Shown piece after piece: positions 10,791 to 20,686 of a DNA stretch of 64,000 bases. The notes below the pieces were generated by a model. It had not been told where the DNA came from and ran no database searches. It worked only from the letters and a program-made list of their open reading frames with translations. Origin of the DNA: Candidatus Frankia nodulisporulans (GTDB lineage: Bacteria; Actinomycetota; Actinomycetes; Frankiales; Frankiaceae); the NCBI RefSeq assembly GCF_902806475.1, contig NZ_CADCWS010000001.1, forward strand, positions 1 through 64,000, written 5' to 3'. Every line of letters starts with the position of its first letter. Position 1 is the stretch's first letter. The position numbers and the translations under genes are program-made.

Positions 10791-12140
10791 TCAGGCGCTC
10801 GGCGGCGTCCATCCGGTCGGGTCGGCGGTGGTCTGGTCGCCGGTGGTCAGATTCTTGACCTCGTGGTCACGGCCGTCGTCGAACGGAGGGAACCAGACGT
10901 GGCCGATGCCCTTGCGCACCGCGTACCGGACCTGTTTGGCCAGCTTGTCGGGCTGGTGGTAGGTCTCCACCCGCAGGCCACGCCCGCGCAGCTGCGCCGC
11001 GGTGGACAGCGCCGCCGCCCGGCGGGCCGCCGACGGGATGACGACGAGCACATCGGCGGGACTTGCCGGGCCCAGCGTCAGCAGCCCCTCGGCGAGCAGC
11101 TTCGCGAAGATACGGGTCAGACCGATCGAGATGCCGACGCCGGGCAGGCTGCGGCGGATGAACGAACCGGCCAGGTTCTCGTAGCGCCCACCGGAGCAGA
11201 TGCTGCCGAAGTCCGGCCAGTCCACGAACTTCGCCTCGTAGACGGTGCCGGTGTAGTAGTCGAGGCCGCGGGCGATCGACAGGTCGGCGACCACGCTGCC
11301 GGCGGGCAGGTCGGCCAGGTCGGCCAGTACGGCGGCGAGCTCATCCAGGCCTTCGTCGAGCAGATCCGACTTGACCCGCAGCTCCCGAACCCGCTCGACC
11401 ACCTCGGCGTCGGAGGCCACCCGGATCGCGGCGAGGTCCAGGCAGGCCTGGACCTGGTCCGGGGCGAGACCGGCCCGCGTCGCGAGCAGGTCACCGACCC
11501 CGACCCGGCCGATCTTGTCCATCCGGTCGACGATGCGGATCACCGCGAGCGGGTCGGCGACGCCGAGCCCCTCGTAGAAACCCTGCAGAACCTTCCGGTT
11601 GTTGATGTTGAGGGTCCACGGTGGGACACCCAGGGTGGTGAGCACCTCGTGCACGATCCGCGGCAGTTCGGCGTCGAAGTGCAACGGCATCCGGTCGACG
11701 TTGATGACGTCGATGTCGCACTGGGTGAACTCGCGGAACCGGCCCTCCTGGGGCCGCTCGCCCCGCCACACCCGCTGCGTCTGGTACCGCTTGAACGGAA
11801 AGACGAGCTCGTTGAAGTGCGCGGCGACGTACCGGGCGAACGGCACGGTGAGGTCGAAGTGCAGACCGAGCCGGGCGCTGTCGTCGTCGGCGTCGGCCTG
11901 CAGCCGGCGCAGGGCGTAGACCTCCTGCGAGGTCTCCCCCTTGGCCATCAGCACGTCGAGGGCCTCGACCGAGGGTGTCTCCACCGAGCAGAACCCGTAG
12001 CTCTCGAAGATCCGCCGGATCGTGTCGAGCCAGCGCTGTTCGATGACCCGGACCTCGGGCAACCACTCGGGAAAGCCGCTGATGGGCAGGGGCCGCACGA
12101 TCGGCGCGTCGCCGGGCGCCGCCACGTTCTCCTGGACCAT
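10791..12140 (-). CDS. hisS: Histidyl-tRNA synthetase
   Basis: Class II synthetase, 449 residues, full length. Motif 2 region (YQTQRVWRGERPQEGRFREFTQCDID), the histidine-specific ARGLDYYTGTVYE block and the C-terminal anticodon domain are present; the motif 3 arginine is in the GVGISIGLTRIF segment. Charges tRNA-His with histidine. It is flanked by gaps on both sides and is probably transcribed alone. Confidence 0.96.
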   Translation of the reverse strand: MVQENVAAPGDAPIVRPLPISGFPEWLPEVRVIEQRWLDTIRRIFESYGFCSVETPSVEALDVLMAKGETSQEVYALRRLQADADDDSARLGLHFDLTVPFARYVAAHFNELVFPFKRYQTQRVWRGERPQEGRFREFTQCDIDVINVDRMPLHFDAELPRIVHEVLTTLGVPPWTLNINNRKVLQGFYEGLGVADPLAVIRIVDRMDKIGRVGVGDLLATRAGLAPDQVQACLDLAAIRVASDAEVVERVRELRVKSDLLDEGLDELAAVLADLADLPAGSVVADLSIARGLDYYTGTVYEAKFVDWPDFGSICSGGRYENLAGSFIRRSLPGVGISIGLTRIFAKLLAEGLLTLGPASPADVLVVIPSAARRAAALSTAAQLRGRGLRVETYHQPDKLAKQVRYAVRKGIGHVWFPPFDDGRDHEVKNLTTGDQTTADPTGWTPPSA

Positions 12141-16430: not shown

Positions 16431-18824
16431 TCACGTCGGGGGTGGATTCCGCGCGGTGTCTGGTTCGAGGCGCAGCCAGGCCGCCGCCGTCGGCGCGATC
16501 ACCAGCCGGCCGCTGTCGCGGGTTCCGCGGAACACCGCGACGTGCAGTGGCCGTTCGGCCGGCAGGACCACCCCGCCCTCACGGCGGTGACGTGCACTGG
16601 TCACCCTGCGGGTGAACGCCCCCGGGTCGGTCGCCGACCGCGGCCGCTCGTCGACACGGGCCACCACCACCATCTCGGCGCAGTCCGCCGGCCAGTTCCA
16701 GCGCAGCCGACCGGACTCCCAGCGCAGGCCGATCGTCGACGGCGGCGGCGACACCGTCCTCGGCGTAGACGGCCCATCACCCGCCTCGGGCACCGAGGCG
16801 ACCTCGGCGGGGGCATCACTACGGGTGGGGGGCGACCAGACCGGGCCGAGACCCGCGCTGACCGCGTAGGCCACCTCGCCCGCGGACGCGCCGCCGTCGG
16901 CCAGCTCGGTCGCCGACGTCACGCCGACCACCCGGCTGGCGCCGTCCCCGCCGATCCGACTGACCCGGTAGCGGACCTCGCCCGGCGTCGTCGACGCCTG
17001 CCAGCGCACCACCACCGACCCGGCCTCCCAGCCCACCCACACCCCCGCGGGCGCGGCCACCGCCCCCGGTGTCGGCCCCTGCTCCCGCGTCGGCGCTGGC
17101 CTCGACCCACCGGTTGCCGCCGTGGCGTCGCGCAGGGCGAGCGCCTCGGTGTGGTCGGCGACCAGCGCCAGTGCCTCGTCGATCAGACGCGACCGCTCCT
17201 GGGCGCCGCCTGGTCCTGTGCCGTCTGGTCCCGTGCCGTCTGGTCCCGTGCCGTCTGGTCCCGTGCCGTCTGGTCCCGTGCCGTCTGGTCCCGTGCCGTC
17301 TGGTCCCGTGGTCGCGGCGGCACGTGCCCGGGCGACGAGATCGTCGGCGGCGGCGCATCGTGCCTCGGCGAGGGAGAGCAGTTCACCGGGCAACTGGCCG
17401 CCCGGACCTGGCACGTCGGCGGCCACGGCGACCACCGGACGCACGGCGTCGAGCACCGCGCGATAGCGCGCGGCGGCGGCCAGCTCGGCGAGCCTGCCCC
17501 AGGCGGTGGCGGCGGCCCGGATCGCCGCCTCGACCTCGTCCCCCACGGCGCGAATGGGCGGCAGCGTCTCTCCCGCGCCCTCCCGCGCGGCGGCGACATG
17601 ATCGCTGGCCGCCACGGGACGTCCGGCCCGCAGCGCCGCCCGCGCCCGCGAGACGTGGACGCGCCAGTCGAGGGCGCCCCGGGTCGGGCCGGCGGCTGGG
17701 CGGCGCGCCGAGTGGTCCGCGGGCCGCGAGGTCGAACCACCCGGCTCGCCGGCCGGCGCGGCGGTCCCGCCGCGCCGGGAGCGGGCACCGGACGCGGGCG
17801 CCTCGGCGATCGGGGGCAACGGTGGGGCGGCGACACCGTGTTCGCGGGCGAGTGCCCGCACGACGGCCTGGGCCCGGTGCGGGTCGAGACCGTCAGCCAG
17901 GGCCGCAGCGACGAGCCGGGCCGCCTCCGCGGGCAGCAGGGCGTCCTCGACCAGGACGGCGGCGGCCACCTGTGGGCGCAGCCGGGTGGTGGTGTCGGCG
18001 GCGAGGGCGTCCAGGTACGCGTGGGGGTCGCCGTCGACGAGCAGGGTCTGGACGGCGGCCAGCAGGTCGTCGAGCAGCGCCCGGCGGCGATCTGGTCGAC
18101 GGGCCCGGTTGCGGGCCAGCGCGGCGTCGCGGGCGGCGCGGATCCGCTCGGGCGAGGCGTCCGTGGGCAGGCCGAGCAGGTCGAACAGGCCGCGCGGCGG
18201 GGTGGTCGCGGCGATCCGGGCGAGTTCGTCCAGGTCGGAGCGGATCTGGCGGAGCACCGCGGGCGAGACCTGCTCGCCGTGGGCCGGGCCGGTGGCCGCC
18301 TCGGTGCCGGCGGCGGGCAGGACGCGATGCCGGCGGATACGGGTGTCGAACTCGGCGGCGGTGATGTCCTGGGTCGCGGCCCAGGTACGCAGGCCCTCGA
18401 GGCGGTCCGCGGGCAGGCCACCGAAGCGGGCGACGAGTCGACGGGCGGCGGCGTCGAGGGCGGCGAAGCGCTCGTCGTCCCGCTCGGCGCGGGCCGCGGC
18501 GACCCGTTCGGACAGGGCCAGCCGGGTGGTGCGGTCGGCGAGGGCCGCGGCGAGTTCGGCGTGCCGCTCGAGCAGCCCGATGATCGCACCGCGGTAGCGG
18601 GGATGGTCCCGGTTGCGCTGCCAGAACGCCCAGACCTCGTCGATGCGGGCCTGGACCTGGGTGTCGGTGAGGGTGGCGACGGCGGCCAGCGGGATGTCGT
18701 AGATCTCGAACGGGTCGCTGTGTTCGGCGCCGCCACGGCGGTGCACCGACGCGAGCACGCGGGCGCGGTAGTCATCCGGGGTGAAGTCGGGAAGCGTGGG
18801 TCCGGGCGGGCCGACGGCGGGCAT
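16431..18824 (-). CDS. Hsp70-partner protein: J-like domain (RPD) plus fibronectin-III-like repeats
   Basis: 797 residues, no overall family recognised. The N-terminal 200 residues are helical and charged. At about 214-270 is a J-domain-like segment (FDLLGLPTDASPERIRAARD...) whose catalytic HPD is R243-P-D. An Ala/Arg-rich helical region follows, then a perfect TGPDG pentapeptide repeat near 505-535, then two fibronectin-III-like beta domains (about 590-690 and 700-797; WVGWEAGSVVVRWQAST, IGLRWESGRLRWNWP). It starts five bases past the Hsp70 stop, so the two are co-translated. Role as a co-chaperone or substrate adaptor is inference from the fold and the pairing. Confidence 0.65.
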   Translation of the reverse strand: MPAVGPPGPTLPDFTPDDYRARVLASVHRRGGAEHSDPFEIYDIPLAAVATLTDTQVQARIDEVWAFWQRNRDHPRYRGAIIGLLERHAELAAALADRTTRLALSERVAAARAERDDERFAALDAAARRLVARFGGLPADRLEGLRTWAATQDITAAEFDTRIRRHRVLPAAGTEAATGPAHGEQVSPAVLRQIRSDLDELARIAATTPPRGLFDLLGLPTDASPERIRAARDAALARNRARRPDRRRALLDDLLAAVQTLLVDGDPHAYLDALAADTTTRLRPQVAAAVLVEDALLPAEAARLVAAALADGLDPHRAQAVVRALAREHGVAAPPLPPIAEAPASGARSRRGGTAAPAGEPGGSTSRPADHSARRPAAGPTRGALDWRVHVSRARAALRAGRPVAASDHVAAAREGAGETLPPIRAVGDEVEAAIRAAATAWGRLAELAAAARYRAVLDAVRPVVAVAADVPGPGGQLPGELLSLAEARCAAADDLVARARAAATTGPDGTGPDGTGPDGTGPDGTGPDGTGPDGTGPGGAQERSRLIDEALALVADHTEALALRDATAATGGSRPAPTREQGPTPGAVAAPAGVWVGWEAGSVVVRWQASTTPGEVRYRVSRIGGDGASRVVGVTSATELADGGASAGEVAYAVSAGLGPVWSPPTRSDAPAEVASVPEAGDGPSTPRTVSPPPSTIGLRWESGRLRWNWPADCAEMVVVARVDERPRSATDPGAFTRRVTSARHRREGGVVLPAERPLHVAVFRGTRDSGRLVIAPTAAAWLRLEPDTARNPPPT
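17221..17310. repeat. Six perfect 15-bp tandem repeats in the Hsp70-partner gene
   Basis: CCGTCTGGTCCCGTG repeated six times without change, plus a diverged copy on the left. Encodes repeated TGPDG in frame. The identical DNA suggests recent expansion by slippage; copy-number changes would keep the frame. Confidence 0.97.
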
Positions 18825-18829
18825 CGGGC

Positions 18830-20614
18830 TCAGATCCCAGGGTTCGCGGCGCCGGGGCCGGAGCCGAAACCGGGGCCGGTGGCCCGTTCCCGACGGGCCC
18901 GAGCCACCTGTTCATGTTCCCGGGCGACGTCGGCCTGGCTGAGCGCCGCCGAGGTCTCCACCCGGACCGTCAGCGGCCGCTGCGCCAGACCCTCGTGGGT
19001 CGCGGTGACCTCGAGGATGCCGTCGAAGCCCATCCGGAACTGGATGTGGATCTGCGAGCCGGCCGGGAAACCGGCGGGAATGCCGGTGATCTCCGCCTCG
19101 GCGATCACCTTGTTGTCCTCGACCCGAGGCGACTCGACCCCACCGGCCTGTTCGACGACGTGGACGATGACCGCGTCCTGGTCGTCGCGAACCGTTCCGA
19201 ACGACCGTCCGACGGCGACCGGCAGCCGGTCGTTGCGGTGCACCAGGAACACCGCGTTCTGGTCACCGAACCGGTTGAGCGCGAGCACCCCGAAGCCGCG
19301 GGACACCACGTTGACGACCTGGACCTCGACCGTCCGGCGGACCCGGGACGCCGGCAGGTCCAGGGCCTGCGCCAACCGGTGGCAGGCCGCGTCGAGCGCC
19401 TCCGGGGCGGCCGCGTCGACCCCGGCCCCGTCGACCAGCTGACCGCGGGTGACCAGATCCGCGAGGACGAGTCGTTCCAGCGCCTTCTTCTCACCGTAGA
19501 TCGCCGCGCCACGGGCGACGGCCAGGTCAGGATCGGTGAGCGCCACCGGAACACCGAACTCGGCGGCCAGCCGTCGGGCGACCGCCGGCATCCGCGAGGC
19601 GCCACCGACCAGCAGGATCTGGTCGATGCCACGCACCCCGCGGGCCAGCGCCGCCTGCTGGGCGGCCCGGGTCAGGGCGATCGTGCGGTCCAGCAGGCCG
19701 GCGGTGAGCTCCTCGAGCGCCGACCGGGTCAGCACCACCTCGGTGCGCCGGCCGTCATGCTCGACGACGACGGTGGTCCGCTCGACGTCGGTGAGCTCGC
19801 GGCGGGCCCGTTCGGCGGCGAGCAGCAGGACCTGGGCCGCCTCGGAGGAGTCCAACGGGTCCGGTGCGCCGGGATGTTCGGCGAGGAAGCGGTCACCGAG
19901 CAGCAGCACGATCTTCTCGTCCCAGTCCGCTCCGCCCAGCTGGTGGTCGCCGTCGATGGCGACGACCGACACCCGCCGGTCGGCCAGTTCCACCACCGTC
20001 ACGTCGAACGTGCCGCCGCCCAGGTCGTAGACGAGCGCGACCTCCTCGGCCACCGTGCCCGGGCCACCGAGGGTGCGCCGGCCGCCGATCTCGAACCGGG
20101 CGAACCCGTAGGACAGGGCGGCGGCCGTCGGCTCGTTGATGACATCGACGACGGACAGCCCCGCGTACTCGCCGGCGAGTACCGTGGCGCGCCGTTCCTC
20201 GTCGCCGAAGTAGGCCGGGACGGTGATGACGACGTCGTGCACCGGTTCGCCGGTCGCCAGGGCCGCGTCGGAGACGAGGGCCTTGAGGATCAGCCCGCTG
20301 ACCGCCGGCGCCGACCAGGCCGTGCCCTGGGTGACGAAACGCCAGTCGCCGTCACCCATCCTGCGTTTGACCAGGGAACAGACGTCGTCGGGACGGGCGC
20401 GGGCGAGTTCACGGGCCGGCTGACCGGTGATGTAGTCGTCGGCGCCGACGAACAGCACCACGCTCGGCAGGGTCTGCGCGTCCCCCGCCAACGGGACTAT
20501 CCGCGGCTCACCGGTCTCGGTGACCCGGGCCACGCAGCTGAACGTCGTCCCAAGATCAATACCGTAGACGCTGTGGGAGCTCGCCGCCGAGCGGCGGTCA
20601 AGGTGTCCGACCAC
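18830..20614 (-). CDS. Hsp70-family chaperone (DnaK-like, short lid)
   Basis: Actin-like ATPase domain with phosphate-1 YGIDLGTTFSCVA, phosphate-2 VYDLGGGTFDVTVVEL and adenosine motif ILLVGGASRMPAVA, followed by a substrate-binding beta domain (about 410-560). The alpha lid is reduced to a short Arg-rich tail, so it is shorter than the about 620-residue DnaK. The frame is open to 20650; I prefer GTG 20614 (594 residues), where TAGGTT seven bases upstream could make a leaderless message. It is not dnaK itself: no grpE or dnaJ adjoins it; its neighbour is a J-like partner five bases downstream. Confidence 0.85.
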   Translation of the reverse strand: MVGHLDRRSAASSHSVYGIDLGTTFSCVARVTETGEPRIVPLAGDAQTLPSVVLFVGADDYITGQPARELARARPDDVCSLVKRRMGDGDWRFVTQGTAWSAPAVSGLILKALVSDAALATGEPVHDVVITVPAYFGDEERRATVLAGEYAGLSVVDVINEPTAAALSYGFARFEIGGRRTLGGPGTVAEEVALVYDLGGGTFDVTVVELADRRVSVVAIDGDHQLGGADWDEKIVLLLGDRFLAEHPGAPDPLDSSEAAQVLLLAAERARRELTDVERTTVVVEHDGRRTEVVLTRSALEELTAGLLDRTIALTRAAQQAALARGVRGIDQILLVGGASRMPAVARRLAAEFGVPVALTDPDLAVARGAAIYGEKKALERLVLADLVTRGQLVDGAGVDAAAPEALDAACHRLAQALDLPASRVRRTVEVQVVNVVSRGFGVLALNRFGDQNAVFLVHRNDRLPVAVGRSFGTVRDDQDAVIVHVVEQAGGVESPRVEDNKVIAEAEITGIPAGFPAGSQIHIQFRMGFDGILEVTATHEGLAQRPLTVRVETSAALSQADVAREHEQVARARRERATGPGFGSGPGAANPGI

Positions 20615-20627: not shown

Positions 20628-20686
20628 TCTTTTGCGGTCTCCGACAGCACTCCCCGGCACCTTGGTGCCAGGCCGATGCCGCCCGG

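Follow-up and report, generated by a model that had tools for sequence, protein, structure and literature searches.

The window, a stretch of 64,000 nucleotides from Candidatus Frankia nodulisporulans (contig NZ_CADCWS010000001.1, positions 1 to 64,000), carries on its minus strand a gene for an Hsp70-like protein and, starting 5 bp downstream of it, the open reading frame (ORF) of a 797-residue partner. Both ORFs of this two-gene module, which had been proposed from the sequence alone, were confirmed, the Hsp70 by Pfam. The neighbours are dapB, an M16 peptidase gene and the PNPase gene, with sugar-nucleotide genes on the side opposite dapB. Adjoining the sugar-nucleotide genes is a histidyl-tRNA-synthetase-like protein (10791-12140, minus strand), which may be either HisS itself or a diverged paralogue. 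The features of the pair are as follows.

18830..20614, minus strand: Hsp70-like gene, 594 aa from GTG (the ORF possibly starts at 20650); Pfam HSP70, E = 3.9e-87
20144..20146, minus strand: codon of residue 157, the DnaK R167 position that contacts the HPD aspartate, here Asp (alignment of 38 Hsp70s)
19325..19492, minus strand: insert before the interdomain linker (comparison with the genome's own DnaK)
19310..19312, minus strand: codon at linker position DnaK D393, here Asn (alignment with DnaK)
18935..19327, minus strand: SBD-beta without helical lid (alignment to the genome's own DnaK)
16431..18824, minus strand: partner gene, 797 aa; homologues share the upstream Hsp70 in 16/16 fetched loci
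18450..18737, minus strand: J-like domain 1, residues 30-125 (AlphaFold2 of the domain alone, pLDDT 93.8; Foldseek)
18597..18605, minus strand: HPR, residues 74-76, in the RDHP[K/R]Y loop of J-like domain 1 (sequence entropy)
17970..18212, minus strand: J-like domain 2, residues 205-285 (AlphaFold2 hairpin; Foldseek; hhalign)
18090..18098, minus strand: RPD, residues 243-245, in the helix II-III loop of J-like domain 2 (alignment, AlphaFold2)
17295..17669, minus strand: apparently alpha-helical, possibly TPR-like region, residues 386-510 (conserved in homologues, no Pfam match)
17205..17310, minus strand: tandem repeat of 15 bp x 7 encoding TGPDG in a linker, strain-specific
16797..17033, minus strand: FNIII-like domain 1, residues 598-676 (PDB profile search)
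16476..16748, minus strand: C-terminal conserved domain, originally read as a second FNIII-like domain; no FNIII match

The Hsp70 scores far below the NCBIfam DnaK equivalog cut-offs, and its nearest named relative, from Frankia sp. R82, is 93% identical. Equivalents of the ATPase residues D8, K70, E171 and T199 are present in all 38 aligned Hsp70s, the window copy included. The protein has an NBD with its ATPase residues, whereas the lid, R167 and the VLLLD linker of DnaK are missing. The original prediction described a DnaK-like protein with a reduced lid; the assignment to Hsp70 holds, but the helical lid is absent, since only 152 residues follow the start of SBD-beta compared with 239 in the genome's own DnaK. 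The spacing between GAAIYG and SRGFG is 63 residues, whereas equivalent points in the same DnaK are 15 residues apart. The linker itself, VLLLD in DnaK, reads VQVVN in the window copy and VQVVN or QVDT across relatives.

The full-length partner has no match in Pfam or NCBIfam. Of the two FNIII-like domains originally proposed, the first is supported, as all ten of its PDB profile matches are to fibronectin or an FN3 consensus (best E-value = 2.4e-4), but a sequence search with the second found no FNIII. A Pfam search with the FNIII alignment, PADLOC and a scan for sigma-70 promoters and terminators were uninformative. The TGPDG repeats are present as had been described, but they are confined to this strain; the array was not found in homologues and represents a recent in-frame expansion of a linker. 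Because of this strain specificity, a role of the repeats as a conserved functional part was rejected.

A scan of genome contigs placed the Hsp70 immediately upstream of the partner in 16 of 16 loci from six actinobacterial genera (Frankia, Parafrankia, Pseudofrankia, Gordonia, Nocardia and Pseudonocardia), so the adjacency noted in the original prediction is conserved; the order PNP-M16-dapB-Hsp70-partner is common to Frankia and Parafrankia. A profile of the partner N-terminal part matched 37 of 394 sampled genomes of the class in a survey that scored five candidates per genome and may therefore have missed distant relatives. Matching genomes include 34 of the 35 from the same family, the one exception being 63% complete, and three from one other family. 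Window-type copies occur in 29 of the matching family genomes, and a more divergent copy, hereafter Ter-type, in all 34. The genome under study itself carries a paralogous set (contig C17:5000-16000) in which DUF475 and a TerD/TerA-like protein are accompanied by a long protein whose end is GrpE-like, by a lidless Hsp70 and by a partner. This partner, of 1429 aa with a zinc ribbon and FNIII, is present in each of the 34 matching genomes of the family.

The relatives differ in the company they keep. The Hsp70 of Gordonia, Nocardia and Pseudonocardia has beside it a GrpE gene, which is transcribed divergently and scores above the Pfam cut-off, and the RefSeq annotation of Tsukamurella gives the same set as grpE, Hsp70 family and hypothetical protein. 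At Ter-type loci of Frankiaceae, GrpE-like ORFs were detected only by a family-specific profile, and none was found in the neighbourhood of window-type loci of Frankiaceae. Similarly to the Ter (TerD/TerC/DUF475) stress systems of actinobacteria, the pairs of Gordonia and Pseudonocardia as well as the C17 paralogue are flanked by TerA-like, DUF475, TerD or TerB genes, whereas the window copy, lying between dapB and sugar-nucleotide genes, has no adjoining gene of TerD/TerC type.

The original prediction recognised one J-like segment in the partner, with RPD at residues 243-245 in place of HPD. The tripeptide is where it was reported, and an AlphaFold2 model of residues 13-332 (17 sequences, pLDDT 88.5) contains two helical hairpins, in one of which RPD lies between helices 225-240 and 246-263. 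Because of this hairpin, the proposal stands on the very point on which it had been staked, a helical hairpin within residues 214-270. The count of 25 residues between the LG glycine and the tripeptide was also correct, but the corresponding number in E. coli DnaJ is 22 and not 24. What had been overlooked is the other, N-terminal J-like segment with its invariant RDHP[K/R]Y loop. In the two-domain AlphaFold2 model, the loop of this hairpin (residues ~30-112) that corresponds to the RPD loop of J-like domain 2 contains RDHPRY, and hhalign likewise pairs HPR of the first domain with RPD of the second (P = 0.014).

Foldseek searches with the two-domain model retrieved many J-domains, e.g. Ydj1 (rmsd 2.1) and the DnaK-bound J-domain in 5nro (target TM 0.74); their higher identity tentatively suggests that they map to the second hairpin. 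For J-like domain 1, the eight best matches in the PDB were all J-domain proteins, with E-values of about 1. As all Foldseek E-values are about 1 or more, the J-fold assignment rests on the composition of the match lists. At the sequence level, hhalign aligned J-like domain 2 with real J-domains along its length (P = 0.008) and gave no alignment of J-like domain 1 with them. The Pfam DnaJ profile (PF00226) matched neither the full partner nor any of 37 J-like domain 2 sequences, and PDB sequence searches with the J-like profiles produced no significant J-domain match. AlphaFold2 predicts the two hairpins confidently, but their likeness to J-domains lies below significance by sequence.

J-like domain 1 is the best conserved part of the partner. 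H74 and P75 have zero entropy among 41 Frankiaceae and Mycobacteriales sequences, and the loop is RDHP[K/R]Y throughout the 41 window-type sequences, whereas Ter-type sequences mostly have RNSAKY. In J-like domain 2, the RRPDR loop is invariant in 29 distinct Frankiaceae sequences, in which much of helix II is variable. However, conservation of RPD ends there: the site reads ELPPG, ELAAG, ELPPD and similar in 12 Mycobacteriales sequences (ELPPG and ELAAG in Gordonia and Nocardia, PPD in Pseudonocardia) and mostly RRPHDR in 20 Ter-type paralogues. RPD was accordingly rejected as a family-defining motif. HPD occurs in neither J-like loop in any of 61 distinct N-terminal sequences of the family.

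The corresponding surface of the Hsp70 has changed as well. D35 of DnaJ contacts R167 and Q378 of DnaK, and H33 contacts L391 (PMC8215388); the D35-R167 salt bridge is critical, and DnaJ D35N suppresses DnaK R167A (PMC13012618). Among the 38 aligned Hsp70s, arginine occupies position 167 in DnaK only. It is replaced by D in Frankiaceae and Pseudonocardia, by G in Gordonia and Nocardia, and by S, G or E in Hsp70s linked to GAP1-N2 GTPases (see below). In almost every member other than DnaK, the Q378 position holds Y, F or V and that of D393 holds N or T. Given the known contacts of D35 with R167 and Q378, the losses in the partner and in the Hsp70 are coherent. Moreover, position 167 is D where the tripeptide of J-like domain 2 ends in D and G where it ends in G, with Pseudonocardia (PPD, D167) falling on the D side, although this co-change may represent a single event on the tree. 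With HPD missing from both loops and its contacts lost from the Hsp70, the HPD-R167 switch cannot work as known, and low cross-talk with DnaK and DnaJ is expected.

The original prediction knew of no described system with this layout, but there is one. Kaur et al. (2020) predicted conflict systems centred on GAP1-N2 GTPases; in ~14% of them HSP70 and GrpE are accompanied, in actinobacterial neighbourhoods, by an FNIII protein with a DnaJ or TPR fusion (PMC7159879). In two other Frankia we found such loci (L117 and L118) with GAP1-N2, DO-GTPase2, GrpE, Hsp70 and an FNIII protein. Their Hsp70s are relatives of the window protein, and the profile of the J-like domain 1 family matches the FNIII protein of L117 (E-value = 9e-4 for 5000 sequences) and does not match that of L118. 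The L118 locus (C1:5085000-5104000) encodes two different Hsp70s, of 527 and 521 aa, in addition to GrpE and the FNIII protein. In the Hsp70 tree, window-type and Ter-type proteins group together with a support of 0.996, to the exclusion of the GAP1-linked Hsp70s.

Shared with this theme are an actinobacterial host, an Hsp70 of the SRG[F/Y/L]G type, its adjacency to an FNIII protein whose N-terminal part is of DnaJ type and the J-like domain 1 homologue in L117. In contrast to the theme, which includes GrpE, the window locus lacks GAP1-N2, DO-GTPase and GrpE, and its partner has two tandem J-like domains, other loops and fewer FNIII domains. The homologues at GAP1-linked loci, together with the prediction of Kaur et al., make the layout a variant of a described theme; the window pair represents a branch of this predicted conflict system that has neither GTPase nor GrpE. 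Direct membership was rejected, as no GAP1-N2 gene was found in the genome (a draft, 86% complete). Compared with DnaK-DnaJ-GrpE, the pair retains the Hsp70 NBD and SBD-beta, a J-like partner and, in relatives, GrpE, whereas HPD, R167, Q378, D393 and the lid are gone and a large insert precedes the linker. In the HscC-DjlB/DjlC system of E. coli a specialised Hsp70 likewise has its own J-proteins encoded nearby and is linked to metal stress (PMC8215388), but its Hsp70 is of a different type, and the window pair has neither HPD nor R167.

Conserved pairing, predicted hairpins and loss of the matching Hsp70 contacts thus support the proposal that the Hsp70 is a dedicated one whose J-like partner lacks HPD. 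With the key J residues missing from the partner and the matching contacts from the Hsp70, the pair probably forms a rewired branch, with private contacts, of a previously predicted bacterial chaperone/conflict system. We put the probability at roughly 60% that Hsp70 and partner are dedicated to each other, share a rewired contact and act in conflict or under envelope or chemical stress; this role is borrowed from the neighbours of relatives, which the window copy itself does not have. Via a rewired interface the J-like domains would dock the private Hsp70; a client or complex would be held by the FNIII and helical parts and remodelled by the ATP cycle of the Hsp70 under such stress or in conflict. 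Nucleotide exchange in Frankiaceae might be provided by the GrpE-like protein of the Ter-linked paralogue or by the general GrpE, or there might be none. A more specific and rather doubtful version is an insulated Hsp70 machine with a re-engineered J-domain switch. Here the bridge between the HPD aspartate and DnaK Arg167 would have given way to reversed chemistry (basic loop residues against Asp167 in Frankiaceae, Gly with Gly in Gordonia and Nocardia), with two half-motif J-like domains, one having HP without D and the other PD without H, acting jointly.

The main rival, although unlikely, is a stable heterodimer akin to yeast RAC (Ssz1-Zuo1), in which a lidless Hsp70 is paired with a J-protein; the window pair would then serve as a constitutive co-chaperone or scaffold without a J-stimulated cycle. 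Loss of the lid, of R167 and of HPD from both J-like domains, as well as the strict gene pairing, would fit such a complex. However, the missing lid is the only feature that the pair shares with RAC itself, no ribosome-binding part was seen and no homology evidence links the two as pairs; the ATPase residues are fully kept, and the GrpE-like factor adjoining the pair in relatives implies nucleotide cycling. We consider it quite improbable that the helical hairpins of the J-like segments are ordinary ones with no relation to J-domains and that the partner is a client adaptor binding the Hsp70 otherwise. The absence of significant sequence or fold scores agrees with this idea, but it leaves unexplained the composition of the best fold matches of J-like domain 1, the position of RPD and HPR in mutually aligned loops and the DnaJ domains on FNIII partners of the GAP1-N2 theme (PMC7159879). 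Least credible is participation in trans in a GAP1-N2/DO-GTPase conflict system whose other genes lie elsewhere in the genome: related HSP70, GrpE and FNIII partners do occur at the GAP1-N2/DO-GTPase2 loci of other Frankia, yet GAP1-N2 was found neither near the window pair nor in a 99% complete single-contig relative (G006) carrying the pair.

To our knowledge, HPD and its partner arginine in Hsp70 are treated as universal. A conserved pair in which both of these elements differ offers a natural experiment on the mechanism by which a J-domain drives its Hsp70, and could also provide an orthogonal set of Hsp70 and partner. The dedicated pair would also extend a predicted conflict system, for which we found no experimental support, by a branch with Ter links and no GTPase. 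In the draft genome as a whole, eight TerD-domain stretches are spread over several contigs, and two further ORFs, of 543 and 915 aa (contigs C250 and C270), match the Hsp70 profile on part of the actin-like domain only.
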